IMG/VR virus record: IMGVR_UViG_3300043777_000059 | Span: 1-36,055 of that record | Strand: one strand, 5' to 3' | Source of the DNA: a virus | Length of the DNA: 36,055 nucleotides | Shown: positions 12,717 through 22,615 of the stretch, in pieces | Layout of the letters: each line of letters begins with the position of its first letter | How positions within the stretch are numbered: position 1 is the first letter of the stretch | Notes under the pieces: generated by a model | Told to the model about the DNA's origin: nothing | Databases searched by the model: none | Seen by the model: the letters and a program-made list of their open reading frames with translations, nothing else | Program-made: the position numbers and the translations under genes

Positions 12717-15181
12717 TCAGCATCCAATACGGCCAATGGAGTCCGGACACGGCCAACGTGGCCTTCCAGATGCCTGACCAACAGGGGCCTGTCACGGTTC
12801 CTGTTGCCGACTGCCTGAACGTCTATTTCCAGGATGGCGCGTATCGGGTCCTGCCGTCCCTTTCTTCGATCGGACCGGCGCTGGGCTATCAGTCCTTGAA
12901 TGCATTCACGTGGTACGACCAGGTGTCTCAGAAGGAGACTGTGTTCGCCGCTGGCGCCAACTCCATATCGCAGTTGATCGACGGAAGTTGGAACTCCGTG
13001 CCGATCAGCGCGGGCGCACAGCTTCTGAACACGACGCTCACTGCGGGAGTTTCGGGCAGCAACACCGGATATTCTGCCGGCTCGTATGGTTCCCTGGGGC
13101 AGACCACTGACATCAATAACAATACAGTCGGGGTGATCAGCCAGAACACGACGTCTGGATCGGCGCCGGTCTTTACTGTCACGCTCGATACGGCCAATCT
13201 CGGGGCGAACTACTTCGCGTCGATCTCTTTCCCCGGCTTGAATCTTTCGCTGCCATCGTCCTCGGCGACGTATTCAAGCACCAACAGCTCCACGCTGTTA
13301 TCCGCCACCATGGCAGTGGGGCAGTCCGGTGATTACACCGGATTTCAGGCCTCTCCCTTGGGGCCTGTCATCGGAACGCTTTCACCCACCACGGATACGA
13401 ATGGCAATCAGGTCATTGGCATCGCCGCCTTTGCGACTACGTTGCCGCGCCCTCAGTATTCATTCGTGCTCACCATCGATACGGCGGGGCTGGGTGCATC
13501 TTACTTCAATAACCTGCAAATCATTCCTCAGGGCAGCACCAGCGGTACGACGTTACTGGCATCGACGGCGACGTACGCCAGTGGAAGCGGCCAATCGAGC
13601 TGGACATGGACTACCGGCGCGCCCATTACGTACGGCGGCGTGTATTCCGTGCTGTTGGTCAAGGCGACAGGCTCCCCCACATCGACATGGACATGGAGTG
13701 GCACGAATGTCCCGATGATCTCAGGAGTCGGCTACAACGTCGTTCTGACGGCTCCGGCGGCTTCCGCGGAAAACGCCACGTTCTGGAGCTTTGCGGCGAT
13801 GGGGCCGTATCTGGCGGCAATCCCGTACACGCAATCGGGCCAGATTACCGGCCCCTACCTCTGGAGCAATCAGGGGGGCGGAAACAATAACTTCTCCCGG
13901 CCCCAAGGCGCTCCAGGTTGCAGAGTGGGCGCCATCGTCAGTCAGTTTCTGATGTTGGGAGACCTCTATCAACAGCAATCCCAGCTCCTGTTCACAGGAA
14001 ACGGCACGCAGAGCAGTTATTCGGGCACTCTCACGGGTCCGATGTTGGCAAACGGCACTATTTCCGACCAACAGGCACTCCTGGCCGGTGTCTTCAGTAA
14101 TGGGACCATTGCCACGGGCGGTTTGCTGAGTCAGGGAACCATCAACTACCTGACGGGCGCGCTCAATCTTGAGTTTTCCTCGGCCGTCCCTAACGGGGAC
14201 CAGGTTTGGGCCGCTTATACGCAGGCTGCTCCCTATCGCGTCCAGTGGAGCGGTATCGGCAACGTCACCAACTGGCCCACTCCACTGACGAATGCGGCCC
14301 TGGCTGTCCAATCGGGATACAACGATCTTCCAGCTACGCTGGGTCCGGTCAAGTTCATCGCTGGCTATCCTTTGTACGGAGTCATATTCCAAGCGACCGG
14401 CATCACGCGCGCGAGTTACATCGGTGGAAATGTCGTCTTCTCGTGGCAGACCTACGAATGGAAGCGGGGACTGGTCGCTCACGGCGCAGCCGTTCAGGTC
14501 GGGGCTAACACCTACTTCCTGGCGGACGACGGCTTCTATTACACGGACGGAGCAAGCGTTTACCCGATTGGCACCGCATCTGACAATTCGGCCGGAATCG
14601 ACAACTGGTTCTGGGCGAACGTCAATCAGAGCGCGCTGGAGGCCATCAGGGCTGGATATGACGCCGAGAAGCGGTGTGTCATCTTCGCGATCTGCACCGG
14701 CTCCAATACCCTCCCTGACACTCTGTTGACCTACAACGTGCTGTCGGGGAAATGGACTCGCGCCCAAGTCGCAGTCGAGTCCTTATGGACAGCCGACAAC
14801 GGCACTGACGGCACGCAGGGAATCCGGCAACTGCTCGGCCTGTTTGATCAGACGCATACGCCGAACGAGCTCACCGGATCAGGTCTCACTGGCTATTTGG
14901 AGTCAGCCGATCTTGCCTTCAGCGACGGATTCACGCGCTTCACCCCGCAAGTGCGCCCGAATATTGCCTGTATGGATATGCCACTCGCGGTCGTCGGCAT
15001 ACGCAACAGCCTTGAGTCGTCGATTACCTATTCACCGGCCGGAACTCCCGACACCTTCAGCGCCGGGTTTGCGCCGACGCTCAATAACAAAGGACTCTAT
15101 ACCCGGATACGGATCATCTCGGCGACTGCGACCGCCATTAACGGAGCGACCGCCAAAATGCGTCCGGGAGGGCCGCTGTGA
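12713..15181 (+). CDS. Large tail-hub / DNA-stabilisation-type protein
   Basis: This 822-residue protein is in the position of P22 gp10-type proteins that seal the portal and form the tail hub. The conserved core is in the N-terminal region (VADCLNVYFQDGAYRVLPSL) and from about 510 on (VTNWPTPLTNAALAVQSGYN, GLVAHGAAVQVGANTYFLAD). It has the beta-propeller-like pattern of such hubs. Two related domains of about 110 residues are inserted in tandem near residues 105-345: DTANLGANYF in the first matches DTAGLGASYF in the second. A third insert at about 430-500 has a GTINYLTGALNLEFSSAVPN signature common to virion modules. The start is GTG, overlapping the previous TGA. Confidence 0.8.
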   Translation: MISIQYGQWSPDTANVAFQMPDQQGPVTVPVADCLNVYFQDGAYRVLPSLSSIGPALGYQSLNAFTWYDQVSQKETVFAAGANSISQLIDGSWNSVPISAGAQLLNTTLTAGVSGSNTGYSAGSYGSLGQTTDINNNTVGVISQNTTSGSAPVFTVTLDTANLGANYFASISFPGLNLSLPSSSATYSSTNSSTLLSATMAVGQSGDYTGFQASPLGPVIGTLSPTTDTNGNQVIGIAAFATTLPRPQYSFVLTIDTAGLGASYFNNLQIIPQGSTSGTTLLASTATYASGSGQSSWTWTTGAPITYGGVYSVLLVKATGSPTSTWTWSGTNVPMISGVGYNVVLTAPAASAENATFWSFAAMGPYLAAIPYTQSGQITGPYLWSNQGGGNNNFSRPQGAPGCRVGAIVSQFLMLGDLYQQQSQLLFTGNGTQSSYSGTLTGPMLANGTISDQQALLAGVFSNGTIATGGLLSQGTINYLTGALNLEFSSAVPNGDQVWAAYTQAAPYRVQWSGIGNVTNWPTPLTNAALAVQSGYNDLPATLGPVKFIAGYPLYGVIFQATGITRASYIGGNVVFSWQTYEWKRGLVAHGAAVQVGANTYFLADDGFYYTDGASVYPIGTASDNSAGIDNWFWANVNQSALEAIRAGYDAEKRCVIFAICTGSNTLPDTLLTYNVLSGKWTRAQVAVESLWTADNGTDGTQGIRQLLGLFDQTHTPNELTGSGLTGYLESADLAFSDGFTRFTPQVRPNIACMDMPLAVVGIRNSLESSITYSPAGTPDTFSAGFAPTLNNKGLYTRIRIISATATAINGATAKMRPGGPL

Positions 15182-15558
15182 TCCTGGTGCAGCCCGAGCA
15201 AGTCGCGAATGTCTGGCCGCTGGTGAGCGCGTGGATAGAGTCCGCTCTCCAATACGGTACTGGGGATGAGAATGCTCTGGATATCCTGGTCGCGGTCGCG
15301 CGTGGTCACTACCTCCTGTTTCACGAGCCCGGAAAGTTCGCGATCGTCGCGCAGATACAGCCCTTCCCCCGGCAGAAGGTCATCACGGTAGTGGCCTGTG
15401 GTGGGGGTGATCTGGAAGCGATCCGCAAAGGGATTGACGAGTTTACCCCTTGGTGCAAGACCCACGGCATCACTGCAGTGCGTGTCTGGGGCCGAGATGG
15501 CTGGCAGAAAGCCTTAGGCATGGCCCGCAAGGGCGCCATTTTGCAACTGGAGCTGTGA
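15178..15558 (+). CDS. GNAT-like fold protein of the virion block
   Basis: This 126-residue protein, starting with GTG (15178), overlaps the hub stop by 4 bases. The layout is that of a compact GNAT acetyltransferase fold: N-terminal helices, strands (HYLLFHEPGKFAIVAQIQ), a strand followed by a Gly-rich turn (VVACGGGDLEA), a helix, then AVRVWGRDGWQKAL near the end. Similar short proteins occur beside tail-hub genes of podovirus-like phages. The acetyl-CoA loop (Q/R-x-x-G-x-G/A) is not clear, so enzyme activity is doubtful and a structural or assembly role is possible. Confidence 0.55.
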   Translation: MILVQPEQVANVWPLVSAWIESALQYGTGDENALDILVAVARGHYLLFHEPGKFAIVAQIQPFPRQKVITVVACGGGDLEAIRKGIDEFTPWCKTHGITAVRVWGRDGWQKALGMARKGAILQLEL

Positions 15559-16274
15559 TGTCAGGCGGCACGAACACCCAAACGCAGACGTTACCAAACT
15601 GGTTGCAGCCTTATCTGACGACCGAACTCGCCTCGGCTTCCGACATCACGCCAGGACTTTCCTCGACGAGCGCTTCAAGTCTCGTGGCGCCTATGAATTC
15701 CGGCGAGCAGCAGGGACTAGCCTCCATGCAAAACGCCGCAGGCACGGGGCAGGCCGATGCGAATAGCGCTGCTGCCGCGAATCAGTTTGAGACCTCTGGA
15801 GCGTTGCTCAATCCTGCGAGCAATCCCTACCTGCAGAATACCTACAACCTGGCCGCAGGGTCCGTGCAGAACTCTATTGATTCGCAGTTTGCTGGGGCGG
15901 GCTCAAACGTAATCAACTCGCTGCCTGTTCAGCAAAACCAACTCAATAATTTGGCGACGCAGCTCTACGGCGGCCAGTATGACACAGGCCTGCAGACGAT
16001 GACCCAGGCTGCCGCCCAGTCGCCAATGATTCAAAGTGGTCTTTACACGCCGGGCCAGGAAACCTATCAGGCCGGCAGCACCGAGCAGCAGCAGGCACAG
16101 AACGTGATCAGCGCGCCTTACAACGCCCTGTCTTGGTACTCGGGGTTACTGGGGCTCAACGGCTCATCGCTCGGGGGATCTTCGACTTCCAATAATGGAG
16201 CGGCTGCAACTCAGGACGCTGGACTGGGCCTGGCAGCGGCAGGCACTGCGGCAGAAATCGCGGCGATGTACTGA
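15558..16274 (+). CDS. Ejection / internal virion protein (T7 gp14-like in type)
   Basis: This 238-residue, Ala/Gln/Ser/Gly-rich protein starts at the ATG that shares one base with the previous TGA. It contains NPYLQNTYNLAAGSVQNSID followed by SQFAGAGSNVINSLPVQQNQ, a pattern I associate with proteins ejected into the host envelope to make a DNA channel. The C-terminal part has Gly/Ser loops and an Ala-rich hydrophobic stretch (GLGLAAAGTAAEIAAMY) that may enter membranes. It is the first of four likely ejection-module genes. Confidence 0.7.
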   Translation: MSGGTNTQTQTLPNWLQPYLTTELASASDITPGLSSTSASSLVAPMNSGEQQGLASMQNAAGTGQADANSAAAANQFETSGALLNPASNPYLQNTYNLAAGSVQNSIDSQFAGAGSNVINSLPVQQNQLNNLATQLYGGQYDTGLQTMTQAAAQSPMIQSGLYTPGQETYQAGSTEQQQAQNVISAPYNALSWYSGLLGLNGSSLGGSSTSNNGAAATQDAGLGLAAAGTAAEIAAMY

Positions 16275-16798
16275 TGCTGATACCAAATCTCATCTTCCTG
16301 TATCACGTGATCGTTGCCAGCGAACCGCTGTTGCGCGAGGCGATTGCTCGCACTTCCGATCCGGCACTCACCGCGTATTTCGCTGCTCACCTGGTCGAAG
16401 AGTTGGATCATGCGGAATGGTTGGCAGAAGACCTCGCGTTGGTTGGAATCGATGTCAAGCGAACCCAGGCGCCACTGGTTGCCGTGCAGATGGCTGGCAG
16501 CATGTATTACCTGATTTTTCACGCCCACCCATGCGCGCTTCTCGGTTACATGCGGGTGTTGGAGAGTTGGCCCATGGACCGTGAACGGCTCGCGAAACAG
16601 GCGCAAGGTTATCCCAAAGATGTTTTGCGCACGGTCAATCACCACATCGACCACGACCCGGGCCATTTGAAAGACATTCTTGCCGCGATTGACAAGGTGC
16701 CGGAGCACAAGCAGCTAATCGATGACGTATCAGCGATGACCCGTAATTACTTACAGCAGGCTGCGCGTTCTATCGCGCAGTTCGCAGGAGAAGTCTGA
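16274..16798 (+). CDS. Heme-oxygenase-like (HDO) diiron protein candidate
   Basis: This 174-residue, all-helical protein has His/Glu/Asp placements like the heme-oxygenase-like diiron oxidase group. HLVEELDHAEW offers Glu43 and His46; AHPCALLGYMRVLE offers His85 and Glu97; HHIDHDPGHLKDI offers His124, Asp128 and His131. Members oxidise small molecules or bind iron. It is shorter than typical family enzymes, and which residues bind metal is my guess. It overlaps both neighbours by one base (TGATG), inside the ejection/virion genes, so it is expressed with them. Whether it is packaged, acts during assembly, or modifies a host metabolite cannot be told from the sequence. Confidence 0.6.
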   Translation: MLIPNLIFLYHVIVASEPLLREAIARTSDPALTAYFAAHLVEELDHAEWLAEDLALVGIDVKRTQAPLVAVQMAGSMYYLIFHAHPCALLGYMRVLESWPMDRERLAKQAQGYPKDVLRTVNHHIDHDPGHLKDILAAIDKVPEHKQLIDDVSAMTRNYLQQAARSIAQFAGEV

Positions 16799-17229
16799 TG
16801 GCAAGCGGCGGAACCATGGGCAACACCGGGCAAACCCAGAACGCGACGGCGCAGGCATTGCAGAATTACCCGATCGTCCCGAATTCGGCCGGAGGCGCGC
16901 AGTCTTCTGCCGCCGGTGCCAATCCTCAGGCCCAGTCCCTGAGCCAACTCCAGACGGCCCTGCAGAGATTGGGCGGCAATGGAACTCCGGGAGGTCCGGC
17001 GCGCAGCCCCGCGGGCCAGACGGCGGCGTTGGGCCAAATGGCAATGCAGGCCGGGCAGCAACAGCAGATGCCTCGCCAGATCATGCCGCAGAATCGGCCG
17101 ATGGGCGCTCCTCAGGGGATGCAGTCCCCGCAAGCTCCACAGTTGGTCGGAGGGATGCCCCAACAAGGCGGCATGACCGTCCAGCAACTGAATCAGATGT
17201 TGGCCCAGCGTAACGGCCTCATGGGCTGA
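16798..17229 (+). CDS. Gln/Gly/Pro-rich virion-region protein
   Basis: This 143-residue low-complexity protein (PQAQSLSQLQTALQRLGG, MPRQIMPQNRPMGAPQGM) has a short C-terminal helix (TVQQLNQMLAQRNGLMG). The composition resembles the start of the next protein, and both are probably flexible parts of the ejection apparatus. No enzymatic motif is seen. Confidence 0.65.
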   Translation: MASGGTMGNTGQTQNATAQALQNYPIVPNSAGGAQSSAAGANPQAQSLSQLQTALQRLGGNGTPGGPARSPAGQTAALGQMAMQAGQQQQMPRQIMPQNRPMGAPQGMQSPQAPQLVGGMPQQGGMTVQQLNQMLAQRNGLMG

Positions 17230-17231
17230 AA

Positions 17232-18965
17232 ATGACCTCGACCTCTTCACCGACGACCGACGACAGCAGCGCGCAGAGCACTTCGAGCAGCTCGGGTGGC
17301 CTGATGGGCACGCTTGGGAGCCTGGCGAAGCTTGCCGATCCGCAATTGTTGATCAGCCTGGGCGCGGGCTTGATGTCGGGCGCTCGGTACGGATCTAATG
17401 CTGGCGAAGGACTGATGCAAGGATTGCAGATGTACCATTCGCAAAAGACGAACGACCTGCAGAATCAGGTCCAGCGTCAGCAGCTTCAGCAAGGCCAGTT
17501 AGGTCTGCAGCGTCAGCAGATGATGATGAACGCCGCCCAACAACAACTTCAGGGTGGACAGGGCGCTCAGCCTCCACCGCCCCCTGGAGCTGGTCTCATG
17601 GGGAGCGCTCCGGCTGGTCAACAGCCGTTCCTTCCGGGCATTTCGCAGATGCCTCAGAGCGGCGCGCCGGGGACTCAAACGCCTCCGCAACAACCGCAAG
17701 GGTTGCCGCAGAGTCTGCAGCCACCCTCCATGGATCAGATCTACGGGACGACTTACCCAGGCGGCATGAGTCCGGGCTATATGCGTGCAATGGCGATGTT
17801 CAGCCAAGATCCCGCGGCAGCGCTGCTCAAGGCGCGCGACGATCAATTGAAGTTGGCGCAGCAGAATTACGCACCGACCATTGCCAAACTCGATGATCTG
17901 ATCAAGTCAGATACGCCTTCGAAATACATGAAAGCGGATTCGGACCTCATGGGCGCGTGGCCACAAATGGCTGCCGCCCTCGGTATGGACCCGGCCAAGG
18001 ATTACAACGACCAGAACGTGCGCTTGGCGCTCACTCACGTGCGCAATCAGATGGCGTCGAGCTTGCAGGAATCCACCGTAGCCCCGGCAGATCAATGGCG
18101 CACCCGGCAGGGCGCGCTGGGTTCGGAGATTCAGACCAATCCGGTAACGGGCGAAGAGAAAGAGGTGGTCAAGCCGCAGCCGTTGACAGACGCGCTAATT
18201 AACGGGCAACCGACCAAAGTCAGGGCCTCCGCGGCGGAAGGCAACACTCCCTACAACACGGTCACCTACGGTACTGCTCAGATGCAGGACCCGAGGATGA
18301 GCGCCCTGGACTCCGCATTGACGACCGCAGGAGTGAGCATTCCTGGGGGCCAGAATGGACAGCAGCGCATTGCGAGGCTGCAAAGCCTGTTGGCCAACAA
18401 TCCAGGCGTGGCCCCGCAGGATATCGCCAATGGGGTTCGGACCGGTCAGCTTGACTTCAGTGGCGCCAAGCGCACGACAGGGCAGTTGTCGATGCTGGCA
18501 GGAGCGGCAAATGTGCAATCTCTCAAGATCGAAAAGGATCTGGGAAGCCTGGGGCCGATCATTCAGACATTGCCCGGGGGCCCCGCTCAACTCTCTCAGT
18601 GGATGACCAACCTGCAGAAGAATTGGAGTTGGGGTGGCGACAAGAATTCCACCGAAGCGGTGGGCTACGTGAAGGAGCTGGCGGGCGAATACGCGAAGAT
18701 CGTCAGCGGCTCAACGGGCCAGGCGGCTCCGGCCGAAGGGGAGATGAAAGATGCTCTGGGGCTGATGCAGTCCGCGTTGACGAAAAACGGCTATCAGGGT
18801 CTGCATGACTTCCTGCTGCAGACTTCGCAGAACCGTCGTGACGCGGTCCGCGAAGGATTGCAGTCGGCAGCGGCTCCTGGCGCGAGCACCGGTGGCGCAG
18901 TGCCCAAATTGAGCCCGGGGCAATCCCATAGCGTCGGTGGCTTCACGGTTACCCGGGTGAACTGA
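17232..18965 (+). CDS. Ejection / internal virion protein
   Basis: This 577-residue protein starts two bases after the previous stop. The N-terminus is Ser/Thr-rich, then LLISLGAGLMSGARYGSNAG followed by EGLMQGLQMYH, a motif I know from phage internal proteins. A Gln-rich coiled coil (residues about 75-110), a Pro-rich linker, and a long helical C-terminal half follow. The final GQSHSVGGFTVTRVN is a small beta tail. The likely role is in DNA delivery across the host envelope. It overlaps the next ATG by one base. Confidence 0.7.
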   Translation: MTSTSSPTTDDSSAQSTSSSSGGLMGTLGSLAKLADPQLLISLGAGLMSGARYGSNAGEGLMQGLQMYHSQKTNDLQNQVQRQQLQQGQLGLQRQQMMMNAAQQQLQGGQGAQPPPPPGAGLMGSAPAGQQPFLPGISQMPQSGAPGTQTPPQQPQGLPQSLQPPSMDQIYGTTYPGGMSPGYMRAMAMFSQDPAAALLKARDDQLKLAQQNYAPTIAKLDDLIKSDTPSKYMKADSDLMGAWPQMAAALGMDPAKDYNDQNVRLALTHVRNQMASSLQESTVAPADQWRTRQGALGSEIQTNPVTGEEKEVVKPQPLTDALINGQPTKVRASAAEGNTPYNTVTYGTAQMQDPRMSALDSALTTAGVSIPGGQNGQQRIARLQSLLANNPGVAPQDIANGVRTGQLDFSGAKRTTGQLSMLAGAANVQSLKIEKDLGSLGPIIQTLPGGPAQLSQWMTNLQKNWSWGGDKNSTEAVGYVKELAGEYAKIVSGSTGQAAPAEGEMKDALGLMQSALTKNGYQGLHDFLLQTSQNRRDAVREGLQSAAAPGASTGGAVPKLSPGQSHSVGGFTVTRVN

Positions 18966-20809
18966 TGGCCACCTATCAAGTCCAGGGGCCTGACGGGTCG
19001 ACCTATCGGATCGACGGTCCCGACAACGCCGATCCGTCTGACGTGATTGCCCAGGTGACTGGGCACAAGCAGGCACATTCGTTTGATGCACTTCCTGGAG
19101 GGGCGGTCGCACCTACCGGATCGGCGGCGGCCAAGGCAGCACAGAGCCCGCTCAGTCAAAGCGACACGCAGAATTTCCTAGCAGGCGCCGGCAAAGCCAC
19201 AATGGATCTCGGGCGTGGTGCTGGCCAGTGGCTGGGGTTGGAATCGCGACAGGATGTGGCGGACTCGCGCAAGCTTGACGCGCCGCTGATGAGTACGAAG
19301 GCGGGAAAGGCCGGCGATATCACTGGCACGGCCGTCGATCTATTGCCGCTCGCGCGCATTCCGGGTGCCGGGACTTTGGCAGGCGCCGCAGGCATTGGAG
19401 CTGGTACCGGACTGTTGATGCCCTCGACGAGTACGGGGGAAACCGCTGCCAACGCTGGATTGGGAGCCGTCGCGAGCCCTCTGGGCGTGTTGGCTGGACG
19501 GGGAATGGGCGCTCTCTATCAAGGCGCGAAAGCAGCTATCGCTCCTTTCTTGAAGGGAGGTTCCCAAGATATTGCTGGCCGCACGCTGCAGTCGTTCGCC
19601 GGCGGCCCTCAAGCTGCTTCCCAGGCAGCGAGCGAACTCTCTGCTACACCAGCCACTCTACCGGGCGTAAAGCCGTCCTTGGGCGAACTCACGAGCAACG
19701 GCGGCCTGGCGCAGCTCGAGCGTTCAGTGCGGAACAATCCCGAAACTACGGCAGCGATGACGGCTCGCGACCAATCCAATCGCGCCGCCATGACAGACGC
19801 ATTGGATCAGCTCGCCGGCACTCCAGCGCAGCGGGCCACGAATGTTGGGCTGCGAGCGGACTTCAGCAAACCATATTACGAGCAGGCCGGCCAAACCACG
19901 GTGCCGGCCGATGCGCAATTGGGAAAGATTCTGGCCCGTCCGTCCATGCAGAAGGCTTGGGCCCGCGCAAGCGAACTGGCGCAGGAGCAGGGTGTCAGTC
20001 TGCGCGAGCCAAGCGCCAATGATATTGACGGCCAGACGCTGCAGTACCTGCGGATGGGACTCTCGGACCTTGCCGATGCCGGTCCCGCTCAGGGAATGGG
20101 GAAATTTGAGGCCAATGCCGTCAAAGGCACTCTATCGGACCTGAATGGGTGGATTGGTCAGAAGGTGCCTGCACTTCAACAGGCTGATCGGATGTTTGCC
20201 TGGGGTTCACGCCCGATCAATCAGGCCGATATCGCGGGTCAATTGCGCGACAAGCTGGTCCCGGCCTTGGGCGACTTCGGATCGGTCCCTCGACTGAACG
20301 CAAATTCATATGCCAATGCATTGCGCAATGGCGATGATCTGGCCGCGAACGTAAGCGGTCGAAGCAACGCCACCCTGGAGGGATCGCTCAACCCTCAACA
20401 AATGACCACGCTTCGGCAAATCGGCGAGCAGTTGGCCAGGCGAGCCAACGCTGCAGATCTGGGCCGCGCCGCGGGCTCTAACACCGCGCAGAATCTCGCC
20501 GGCCAGAACCTTCTCAGGCAATTCCTAGGACCCTTGGGCCTCCCGGAATCGACTCTTGGCCGCGCGACTCAGGGAGTCCTGGGTCAGAGCCTCATGCGCC
20601 CATATGGGGTAGTGGCGAAGGCAGCAGAGCCGGACATTCTGCAACAGCTTTCGCGAGCATCATTGGACCCTCAATACGCTGCTCAACTTCTGAGTAGAGC
20701 GCCAAACTCCCGCGCCGCTCAACTTCTGTGGCAGCGCCAGGGCCTGCTCGGTCCACTGGCCAATACCGCCGCGGGAGGTCTCTTGGGGTCAGGAAATGCG
20801 GCGCAGTAA
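18965..20809 (+). CDS. Large ejection protein with membrane-prone segments
   Basis: The 614-residue protein starts with a short beta hairpin unit (YQVQGPDGSTYRIDGPDNAD), seen at the start of many phage internal proteins. Residues of about 125-180 are Gly/Ala-rich and hydrophobic (IPGAGTLAGAAGIGAGTGLL, then ANAGLGAVASPLGVLAGRGM), suitable for membrane insertion. The rest is a series of amphipathic helices, ending GLLGPLANTAAGGLLGSG. The likely role is formation of the channel for genome entry. Its last 21 bases overlap a small gene on the other strand. Confidence 0.7.
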   Translation: MATYQVQGPDGSTYRIDGPDNADPSDVIAQVTGHKQAHSFDALPGGAVAPTGSAAAKAAQSPLSQSDTQNFLAGAGKATMDLGRGAGQWLGLESRQDVADSRKLDAPLMSTKAGKAGDITGTAVDLLPLARIPGAGTLAGAAGIGAGTGLLMPSTSTGETAANAGLGAVASPLGVLAGRGMGALYQGAKAAIAPFLKGGSQDIAGRTLQSFAGGPQAASQAASELSATPATLPGVKPSLGELTSNGGLAQLERSVRNNPETTAAMTARDQSNRAAMTDALDQLAGTPAQRATNVGLRADFSKPYYEQAGQTTVPADAQLGKILARPSMQKAWARASELAQEQGVSLREPSANDIDGQTLQYLRMGLSDLADAGPAQGMGKFEANAVKGTLSDLNGWIGQKVPALQQADRMFAWGSRPINQADIAGQLRDKLVPALGDFGSVPRLNANSYANALRNGDDLAANVSGRSNATLEGSLNPQQMTTLRQIGEQLARRANAADLGRAAGSNTAQNLAGQNLLRQFLGPLGLPESTLGRATQGVLGQSLMRPYGVVAKAAEPDILQQLSRASLDPQYAAQLLSRAPNSRAAQLLWQRQGLLGPLANTAAGGLLGSGNAAQ

Positions 20810-20950: not shown

Positions 20951-22615
20951 ATGAGCACGCCTAATCCTTTCTCCCAAGGCGCTGCGAACCAGATCGCCAA
21001 CGCGCTTCAGGCACAGAGCCTGCAAAACGGTTTCACGCAGTCGATCTTCAATGCGTGGCTCGCCGGCATCGATTCACTCAAGCAGACCACCGCCGAAATC
21101 GCCGCCGGGGTGACGCCGGTTAATTATGCGTATGCGCCCTACAATGCGTGGCGCTACGGCGCAGACCCCACAGGTAATACTGATAGCACCGCCGCACTCA
21201 ATCTGTGGCTACAGGTCGTGCAGACGGTGACGAGTTCCTCGTACGCCGGGCAGGCGTTTCAAGGCGGCTATCTACCCGGAGGGGTCTACCTTATCTCCGG
21301 TCCGCTACTGCCGATCACGACCAGCAAGGTTCGCATCTACGGAGATGGTTCGGATGTATCGCGCATTGTTGTCAATGGAGTGGCTAGCTCATTCATTGTT
21401 CTGCAGATTGGCAATACACTTCCCACCTCGACGGTCATAGACAACATCCAGGTCGAAGGCATCGGGATACTGCGCAACAGTGGCTCTGCCGGCATGACAC
21501 TCATGGCGGTCTACAACACGCAGTATAGCCATTATCGCGACCTGACTTTGTATGACAATACGGGCGTAACCGGAGGATGCTCGCTGGATTACAGAGGACA
21601 TGAGAACAACACTTTTGAGAATCTGTGGCTGACAAACATTCAGCCAATCATCATGGGTAATCCGTCCGGGACTGCCGATGATGGCTGCGATCACACGGCC
21701 TGGATCGGACTGGAGATGCAGAGCAACTCCAACACGCAGCCTCTGATCTCAGTAATCGGCGTCGGTACCTCGATCAGCAATCAGACTTTTATAGGAAATC
21801 AGGTCTGGCTAGGCGGGAATTATGGCTTTTACTGGAATGATACGAGCGCAGGGACTGGGACTGGCGTGGGTGGAAACCTTGAATTCAACAATATCCGCCG
21901 GGAGCAAACCAGCGGCACGTCGGCTAACCAAACTATCTATATCAATGTAGCGACCAGCAATTCTGTATCTAATGTCTCTGTCAGAGACTCCACTTTCGGG
22001 CTGCCCACTACTCTATCAGGAGGTCTGTACTTCAGCGGCGTTAACTGGGTGACGTTGGAAAATGTCAATCTATCTGTCGGCGGCGTTGGCGTTACGATGA
22101 TTGGCCGCGCCGGACAGTCATCAACTCAACTGGTCACGATAAACTGCAATCTTGATCCGACCGCCACCGTACTGACAAACATGGAACAGGTGTTCGGTTC
22201 GAATGATGCGATCCTTGGACTGGATGGCAGCACGCCTTATCAGCCGCAGACTTGCGTCTACCAATACACTGATGCCAACAATCAGACCGTCCGGGGAATG
22301 CGCATTTACGAGGCGCGCAAGTGGAGCGGCTCCCGTCAAGCGGTAGCTGCGAGCGGTGGGATTTTCATCATTCCGGGGAGCGCCACGAGTGTAGCGATGG
22401 TCACCGTGGTCGCTTACAGCAGCGGCGTGCTCGACCGGGGAGACTTCGCCTGCGCCGGTGAAACAGTTGTGATGAGCAATGGCACTGCGAACATGGCTGC
22501 CGCGATCACTTCGGGCAAGATTTCTGTGACTTGGGCGAGCGGCAGTAGTAGCTATGTGGTCACCAACGACGCTACCGCAGCAAAGAACATCAATGTCAGC
22601 GTGGAATGGATGTAA
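20951..22615 (+). CDS. Tailspike / receptor-binding protein with right-handed beta-helix
   Basis: The 554-residue protein has a short N-terminal helical adaptor (residues 1-55) that would attach to the tail hub. The pectate-lyase-type entry motif YNAWRYGADPTGNTDSTAAL near residue 65 follows. GYLPGGVYLISGPLLPITTS and IYGDGSDVSRIV come next, then repeated short strands (IDNIQVEGIGILRNSG, YRDLTLYDNTG, VSVRDSTFG, LENVNLSVGG) typical of parallel beta-helix coils. The C-terminal 80 residues are a separate beta domain, probably for trimerisation. Such proteins bind and often cleave surface polysaccharide. Catalytic residues cannot be assigned by eye. Confidence 0.85.
   Translation: MSTPNPFSQGAANQIANALQAQSLQNGFTQSIFNAWLAGIDSLKQTTAEIAAGVTPVNYAYAPYNAWRYGADPTGNTDSTAALNLWLQVVQTVTSSSYAGQAFQGGYLPGGVYLISGPLLPITTSKVRIYGDGSDVSRIVVNGVASSFIVLQIGNTLPTSTVIDNIQVEGIGILRNSGSAGMTLMAVYNTQYSHYRDLTLYDNTGVTGGCSLDYRGHENNTFENLWLTNIQPIIMGNPSGTADDGCDHTAWIGLEMQSNSNTQPLISVIGVGTSISNQTFIGNQVWLGGNYGFYWNDTSAGTGTGVGGNLEFNNIRREQTSGTSANQTIYINVATSNSVSNVSVRDSTFGLPTTLSGGLYFSGVNWVTLENVNLSVGGVGVTMIGRAGQSSTQLVTINCNLDPTATVLTNMEQVFGSNDAILGLDGSTPYQPQTCVYQYTDANNQTVRGMRIYEARKWSGSRQAVAASGGIFIIPGSATSVAMVTVVAYSSGVLDRGDFACAGETVVMSNGTANMAAAITSGKISVTWASGSSSYVVTNDATAAKNINVSVEWM

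Follow-up and report, generated by a model that had tools for sequence, protein, structure and literature searches.

Nearly all that is known of the heme-oxygenase-like dimetal oxidase (HDO) superfamily comes from small-molecule biosynthesis. Published members carry the ligand motif E-H-E-H-(D/E)-H across three core helices (PMC11363339). In AetD the ligands are D76/H79, E140 and H172-x3-E176-x2-H179, and helix 1 of AetD, UndA and BesC is kinked at the ligand site (PMC11611611). When an HDO is substrate-triggered, Fe1 is bound by the substrate itself; in UndA the ligand to Fe1 is the carboxylate of the fatty acid, whose alkyl chain occupies a hydrophobic channel (PMC13108848). Peptides are acted on as well. 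VarO, an HDO, is required for the dehydrogenation of a ribosomal peptide in thiovarsolins (PMC6511847), and TfuA-YcaO clusters of Sinorhizobium include a heme-oxygenase-like gene (PMC8120280). The ejection operon of phages, in turn, has the order gp14-gp15-gp16 (PMC8954989).

Here we describe an HDO gene within the ejection operon of a viral DNA of 36,055 nucleotides (IMG/VR record IMGVR_UViG_3300043777_000059), the whole of which is called the window. A sequence-only reading of the window had placed a candidate heme-oxygenase-like diiron protein at 16274..16798 inside the ejection gene cluster and had called such enzymes little known in phage virion operons. Our searches agree with the latter statement: there was no PHROG for the family, no tblastn match in 50,697 cultured-phage records (INPHARED), no BFVD fold match to the model, and no relevant paper on phage heme-oxygenase-like diiron proteins or PF14518 in the open-licence literature. 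A group of short-tailed-type phages carries an HDO branch amid its injection-machinery genes. New is thus a conserved viral HDO branch with an intact predicted dimetal site, inside the injection genes and missing from the phage protein libraries searched.

Identification and Fold of the HDO Gene

The HDO ORF (16274..16798, + strand) has an ATG start and a TGA stop, encodes 174 aa and has the same orientation as the surrounding late genes. The coordinates given by the sequence-only reading were right, and the peptides on which it relied (E42-W49, A84-E97 and H123-L132) are present. The Pfam family Haem_oxygenas_2 (PF14518) matched the ORF with an E value of 3.7e-8 and 33.8 bits, against a gathering cut-off of 28.9. 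The same family matched 22 of 23 viral homologues (E ≤ 0.01), and a close viral homologue passes too.

The AlphaFold2 model, with the 23 viral homologues as input alignment, reached a pLDDT of 95.2 and a pTM of 0.89. Its nearest solved structure was 3dde (Z 20.0, rmsd 2.1 over 174 residues), and the Z scores of CADD, HrmI, TenA, UndA, PqqC and FlcD were 17.2, 16.1, 16.0, 15.5, 14.7 and 14.3, respectively. These matches exceed a Z of about 13, the level reachable by chance among helical bundles. The superpositions with 3dde, CADD, HrmI and UndA span 169-174 residues of the model. Because of this full-length coverage and the gap in Z between 3dde or CADD and the rest, the protein falls clearly within the heme-oxygenase-like fold, and the predicted structure is the bundle that the earlier reading had expected. 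The model therefore strongly supports the assignment of the ORF to the HDO superfamily as a putative enzyme. Weak DUF892/ferritin matches were also seen and were rejected, as the fold search returned the heme-oxygenase-like fold.

The window protein is without about 26 N-terminal residues that are found in most homologues (window:16274-16300), and the same is true of three other loci (L005, L007 and L023). The short N-terminus is argued to be real from the stop-start overlap at the beginning of the gene; the upstream frame is open but has no usable start.

Viral HDO loci were found in IMG/VR on three occasions: 25 in the first scan, 2 from the survey of relatives and 34 further contigs later. 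Genome contig searches with single- or two-sequence HDO queries returned no cellular relative. The closest cellular relative found, in a cellular survey that consisted of plasmids, is a gene of S. fredii (32.7% identity, E 5e-11; A4 profile E 4.4e-36). It shares the ligand set and adjoins YcaO (1e-65) and TfuA (1e-32) genes. On the same S. fredii sequence, a 67-aa ORF directly upstream of YcaO (L004:7445-7648), divergent from the HDO gene and ending ...QVICGL, is a candidate RiPP precursor.

Metal Ligands of the HDO

The complete published HDO motif of six residues, three His and three carboxylates (3H/3C), is present in the window protein as E43-x2-H46, E97 and H124-x3-D128-x2-H131. E43 and H46 form the ExxH of core helix 1 (16400..16411, + strand), E97 lies in core helix 2 (16562..16564, +), and H124, D128 and H131 form the HxxxDxxH of core helix 3 (16643..16666, +). 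The earlier reading had named E43, H46, E97, D128 and H131 correctly and had overlooked H124. In the model there is a helix break between E43 and H46, helix 1 stopping at residue 43 and resuming at 46, which resembles the kink of this helix in AetD, UndA and BesC. Compared with AetD, the ligand spacing in helices 1 and 3 is equal, with H172/E176/H179 corresponding to H124/D128/H131.

All six ligands were invariant in the 26/26 viral sequences of the first set and the 34/34 of the second, so that the conservation proposed as a check is found in every homologue (60/60 for each ligand). Pairwise identity among the viral homologues is about 40% (median of the HDO about 43%), and residues near the ligands vary, namely H39 (23/34 in the second set), W49, H127 and R119. 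The patterns used to retrieve homologues covered residues around 46-53, 75-83 and 86-95, including H46 and G91. The invariance of E97, H124, D128 and H131 is therefore unbiased, since these residues were not part of the patterns. H39, invariant in the first 26 sequences, had been considered as a ligand and was dropped once the second set varied. At the position of the seventh carboxylate (SznF type 3H/4C; spacing taken from F48 of AetD), A15/S16 are found, and the residue is nearly always small; E17 is frequent and not invariant. Judged from the residues conserved, catalytic competence is well supported, and the protein is very probably a functional HDO.

The Ejection Operon and Its Accessory Slot

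The HDO gene of the window stands in a row of genes on the + strand. A virion structural protein in the position of the tail/stabilisation protein (12719..15181; phrog_3287 'virion structural protein', 9e-26) is followed by a small protein in the position that a GNAT-like gene holds in related phages (15178..15558; weak phrog_22172 match, 2e-4). Next comes a Q/A/S-rich protein of about 238 aa (15558..16274), which by gene order is a virion protein in the gp14-like position and is the proposed partner or substrate of the HDO. Its stop and the HDO start overlap as TGATG (16272..16276, +), as is similarly the case in most HDO-carrying loci, so translational coupling of the HDO to the upstream gene is probable from the overlap. 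Downstream of the HDO lie a Q-rich 143-aa protein (16798..17229; ORF only, no family match), a large protein in the gp15-like position (17232..18965; gene order, no family match) and a large protein in the gp16-like position (18965..20809; gene order), which clusters with the corresponding ORF of locus L001 (c14).

In the related viruses the usual order is a head gene, a tail-tubular-like gene, a large beta-rich tail/stabilisation protein, a GNAT-like small protein, a Q/A-rich virion protein (phrog_6121-like, VIR2), the HDO, mid-size and large internal proteins, and a tail fibre. As in T7/P22-like ejection operons, gp14-like, gp15-like and gp16-like genes follow one another between tail and fibre genes; unlike in those operons, the gp14-like and gp15-like genes are separated by an enzyme gene. 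The likeness rests on gene order, as no named ejection PHROG was found for the flanking proteins and no sequence match to T7/P22 proteins is shown. Counterparts of the flanking proteins in Mx8 are annotated as virion structural proteins. The placement inside the ejection gene cluster made by the earlier reading was thus upheld by the conserved gene order, the functions of the flanking genes being taken from that order and from virion annotation.

The HDO directly follows the virion protein in all HDO-carrying loci with a readable upstream ORF except two. In L016 one small ORF lies between them, and in L019 the HDO stands after the tail protein, which ends in GGVM. The window lineage also differs, together with L018 and L131, in that the upstream protein does not match the VIR2 (phrog_6121) profile.

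The HDO is missing from collinear cultured phages, with p55 in its slot in Myxococcus phage Mx8 and an empty slot in Stenotrophomonas phage BUCT555 and isolate ctMlz233. A slot was visible in 54 relatives: it is essentially empty in 26 and holds an HDO in 2, and in others it is occupied by a PAPS-reductase-like enzyme or by proteins that are glycine-rich or short and Q-rich. On a tree of 116 rows, the HDO was gained or lost in 15 changes. Congruence between HDO and neighbour-gene identities was weak to moderate (Spearman 0.03-0.69), which fits gain and loss on the tree. The HDO gene is accessory: its slot in the ejection operon is fixed, and the gene has been repeatedly gained or lost.

Two further observations concern this region. 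In a cluster of related contigs (L077:3700-4383, also L061, L078, L079, L080 and L083) a 227-aa ORF replaces the HDO, and the copy in L077 is PAPS-reductase-like (PF01507, 2e-14). The upstream proteins of this cluster have Met-rich ends (GAAGMM, AGAMFL, AGAMYA). Accessory enzymes in general may find a site in this slot. Nearly all relatives, whether or not they carry the HDO, encode the GNAT-like small protein immediately ahead of the virion protein (L006:6420-6932, L005:6567-7031, L001:6659-7057), and the target of this small protein could also be a virion protein.

Elsewhere in the window, an integrase is encoded on the - strand (window:31942-32952; phrog_1, 1.3e-39), and the phage is probably temperate. 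Beyond the 554-aa ORF 20951-22615, which follows the gp16-position gene, a separate 130-aa protein (window:22940-23332) matches an inner segment of the larger proteins found in phrog_873 (named endolysin, 3e-43) and in phrog_7182 (tail injection transglycosylase). The ORF at window:23909-24424 matched phrog_1128 (moron category, named enoyl-CoA hydratase-like; 2e-10).

An Aromatic C-Terminus Accompanies the HDO

In the window the upstream protein ends ...GTAAEIAAMY, the hydrophobic tail EIAAMY with its terminal Tyr being encoded at 16254..16271 (+ strand). The tails of upstream proteins in HDO-carrying loci are hydrophobic and rich in Ala and Met, for example ...IAAMFF in L003, ...AAIMYY in L005 and ...AAMMMMF in L022. 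In the first set, the last residue was F, Y or W in 23/25 HDO-carrying loci versus 7/66 relatives without the HDO. Before the second scan it was recorded as a prediction that at least 80% of further HDO-carrying loci would end in F/Y/W. This held in 32/34 new contigs, and the two exceptions end in M and L.

Altogether, 53 distinct tails from HDO-carrying loci end in F (37), Y (12), L (3) and M (1). An aromatic end was found in 49/53 of these versus 7/63 distinct tails without the HDO (Fisher 3e-20; the rows are related, and since Fisher values ignore relatedness they are not to be read as probabilities). A control for kinship on the tail-protein tree (starred branches only) gave 9 independent pairs, in which 8.3 agree with the HDO and 0 oppose it (median p 0.008). 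No aromatic end was found when the last residues of the other genes of these operons were compared.

Overlap of the stop with the next start was rejected as a sufficient cause of the tail. Genes that overlap the next start in loci without the HDO have an aromatic end in only 2/32 cases, and the aromatic tail is kept where there is no overlap with the HDO (L010, L013 and L024) and where an ORF intervenes (L016). The terminal codons TTC, TTT, TAC and TAT and the stops TGA, TAA and TAG all occur, and four codons with three stops indicate that the constraint acts on the amino acid. The upstream proteins of the window, L018 and L131, outside the usual family, nevertheless end in Y/F.

L008 and L034, the closest pair with and without the HDO, are collinear and share 73% nucleotide identity across 3.1 kb. 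The two VIR2 proteins correspond as far as their C-terminal ends; there, that of L034 runs into an S74-like domain and that of L008 stops at ...AMAFMGF, followed by the HDO. By eye, many virion proteins of loci without the HDO (L034, L035-L038, L040 and others) end in an S74 intramolecular chaperone-like domain (GFMADEV...DGF..VNY), an unusual end for a protein in the ejection position. The AlphaFold model of the upstream protein was poor (pLDDT 53). An outer-membrane beta-signal was considered as the reason for the terminal Phe and rejected on inspection, as the tails are rich in Ala and Met without alternating polar residues.

A Proposed Role in Modifying the Virion Protein C-Terminus

The presence of the aromatic tail just before the HDO in nearly every case suggests that the enzyme modifies part of the virus particle. 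In our view the best explanation is that the HDO is an active diiron oxidase whose target is the C-terminus of the virion protein next to it, a reading whose truth we consider almost evenly balanced. Some link of the HDO to the tail, either physical or catalytic, is fairly probable. Catalysis on the tail, taken by itself, leans slightly towards the doubtful side. A still more tentative version would be that the phage HDO oxidises the C-terminal aromatic residue of an ejection protein post-translationally, that the injection machine may be matured by RiPP-like chemistry, and that tail and enzyme may have spread as a module through unrelated proteins in the gp14 position.

The HDO would be made together with the upstream virion protein through translational coupling and would oxidatively modify its terminal Phe/Tyr. 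The Ala/Met-rich hydrophobic tail is proposed to slide into the pocket, its terminal carboxylate coordinating Fe1 in the manner of lauric acid in UndA; a peroxo-diiron species could then desaturate, hydroxylate or decarboxylate the terminal residue. Candidate benefits for the ejection protein are maturation, membrane insertion and protection of the terminus. By analogy, a hydrophobic protein tail ending in Phe/Tyr-COO- may be a natural analogue of the UndA substrate. Carboxylate/Fe1 chemistry, the existence of HDOs that act on peptides and the S. fredii relative beside YcaO/TfuA together make modification of the C-terminus the best-supported reading.

Several observations speak against modification of the tail. 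Leu or Met ends 4/53 tails, pointing to further substrates or exceptions, and in L016 and L019 the HDO is separated from the tail by the small ORF or follows another gene, with the end GGVM, respectively. Known substrates of 3H/3C HDOs are free amino or fatty acids, and the target of VarO is an Arg side chain rather than a C-terminus.

The first alternative is an auxiliary metabolic enzyme. Its substrate would be a small molecule of the host, such as an amino acid or a fatty acid, oxidised during lysogeny or at a late stage of infection, and its place in the late operon would serve merely for expression. Amino or fatty acids are the substrates of most characterised HDOs (PMC13108848), and the slot takes accessory enzymes such as the PAPS-reductase-like enzyme in other phages. 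However, the aromatic tail of the upstream protein is left unexplained and no metabolic partner gene is conserved beside the HDO, and we regard a metabolic role as unlikely, though not so unlikely as to be passed over. A host metabolite as target and the sensing of iron or oxygen had both been suggested by the sequence-only reading; neither gained positive evidence, unlike the C-terminus of the upstream virion protein, which that reading had not proposed.

The main rival for the tail itself is docking, because a tail that merely docks the enzyme would yield an equal association. The HDO would be packaged in the virion core by this signal, ejected with the gp14-like protein, and act on a host target or on oxygen or iron at entry. 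This accounts for the same association and for the position of the HDO in the ejection operon, and in T7 the gp14-like proteins are virion components and the first to be ejected (PMC8954989). Against it, presence of the HDO in virions is an assumption, and the strictness of the last residue (F/Y 49/53) better fits a terminal carboxylate and aromatic group in a pocket than a general hydrophobic label. We consider docking unlikely as well, and put it just behind a metabolic role.

A constraint at the DNA level, or inheritance of a module, would make the tail a by-product: the HDO module would bring along the last upstream codons, or TTYTGATG would aid re-initiation at the HDO start. Most junctions are indeed TRATG overlaps, the C-terminal end and the HDO change together between L008 and L034, and slots with the PAPS-reductase likewise show Met-rich overlapping ends. 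Yet F/Y is retained at junctions that do not overlap and across four codons and three stops, overlapping genes without the HDO are aromatic in only 2/32 cases, the median identity of the HDO has fallen to about 43% while the upstream end persists, and three upstream proteins outside the usual family share such an end. These points make a DNA-level origin distinctly improbable.

Still less probable is a protective role in which the HDO consumes O2, peroxide or free iron and so limits oxidative damage to the phage or lysogen. DtpC of Acinetobacter is an HDO-domain protein whose predicted ligands are needed against peroxide build-up (PMC13232832), and the integrase of the window phage makes a benefit to the lysogen conceivable; however, the HDO belongs to a late virion operon, where its start overlaps the preceding stop, rather than to a group of stress genes, and the tail is left unexplained. 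Finally, the guess of the earlier reading that the protein had become a structural helical bundle, dead in catalysis and turned virion component, finds some favour in its position among virion genes and the lost N-terminal segment of the window copy but is disfavoured to the point of being very unlikely by six ligands that stay unchanged in all 60 homologues, which share about 40% identity and differ at H39, W49 and R119, and by the absence of the gene from close relatives with complete operons.

Modification of the virion protein C-terminus remains the preferred reading, and the association with an aromatic C-terminus gives a specific hypothesis for the function of the HDO. If it is true, there would be an oxygen-dependent maturation step of the phage particle and a gene-encoded means of modifying protein C-termini, and the O2 and iron supply of the host would be linked to phage infectivity.

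Comparison with Known Systems

The nearest protein by both fold (Z 20.0) and profile (E 8.7e-6) is 3dde, Sden_3740 of Shewanella denitrificans, in which HxxEExxH and HxxxDxxH are aligned with the window HDO. It is a bacterial protein whose function is unknown, and we know of no link between it and any phage operon. UndA, HrmI and CADD have the fold (Z 15-17) and the E-H-E-H-(D/E)-H motif in common with the window HDO but only 12-16% identity to it; with UndA (12%), fold and ligand type are shared. CADD/NePabS pABA synthase uses a sacrificial Tyr27. Residue 1 of the window HDO aligns with residue 39 of CADD, so the window protein is without a counterpart of this Tyr; other homologues have an N-terminal extension. 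TenA and PqqC have a similar fold (Z 14.7-16) but are metal-independent, whereas the window HDO has the full invariant set of dimetal ligands and so falls outside that class.

DtpC of Acinetobacter baumannii is a case in which the HDO ligand set is needed for a non-biosynthetic role, namely protection against desiccation and peroxide (PMC13232832). It differs from the phage HDO in the ligand spacing of helix 1 (E143/H153) and in its operon, which includes a catalase and is not that of a phage.

TfuA-YcaO RiPP enzymes are related in sequence through the S. fredii gene, in a peptide-modifying context (PMC6511847, PMC8120280). In contrast to those clusters, the phage loci are without YcaO/TfuA and contain GNAT-like and virion genes instead, and the target proposed for phages is the terminus of a virion protein rather than a peptide that is released. 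With respect to the solved HDOs, the window HDO is distinct in being encoded by a phage in a virion operon, in having about 26 N-terminal residues fewer and in its proposed substrate, which would be a protein C-terminus and not a free metabolite.
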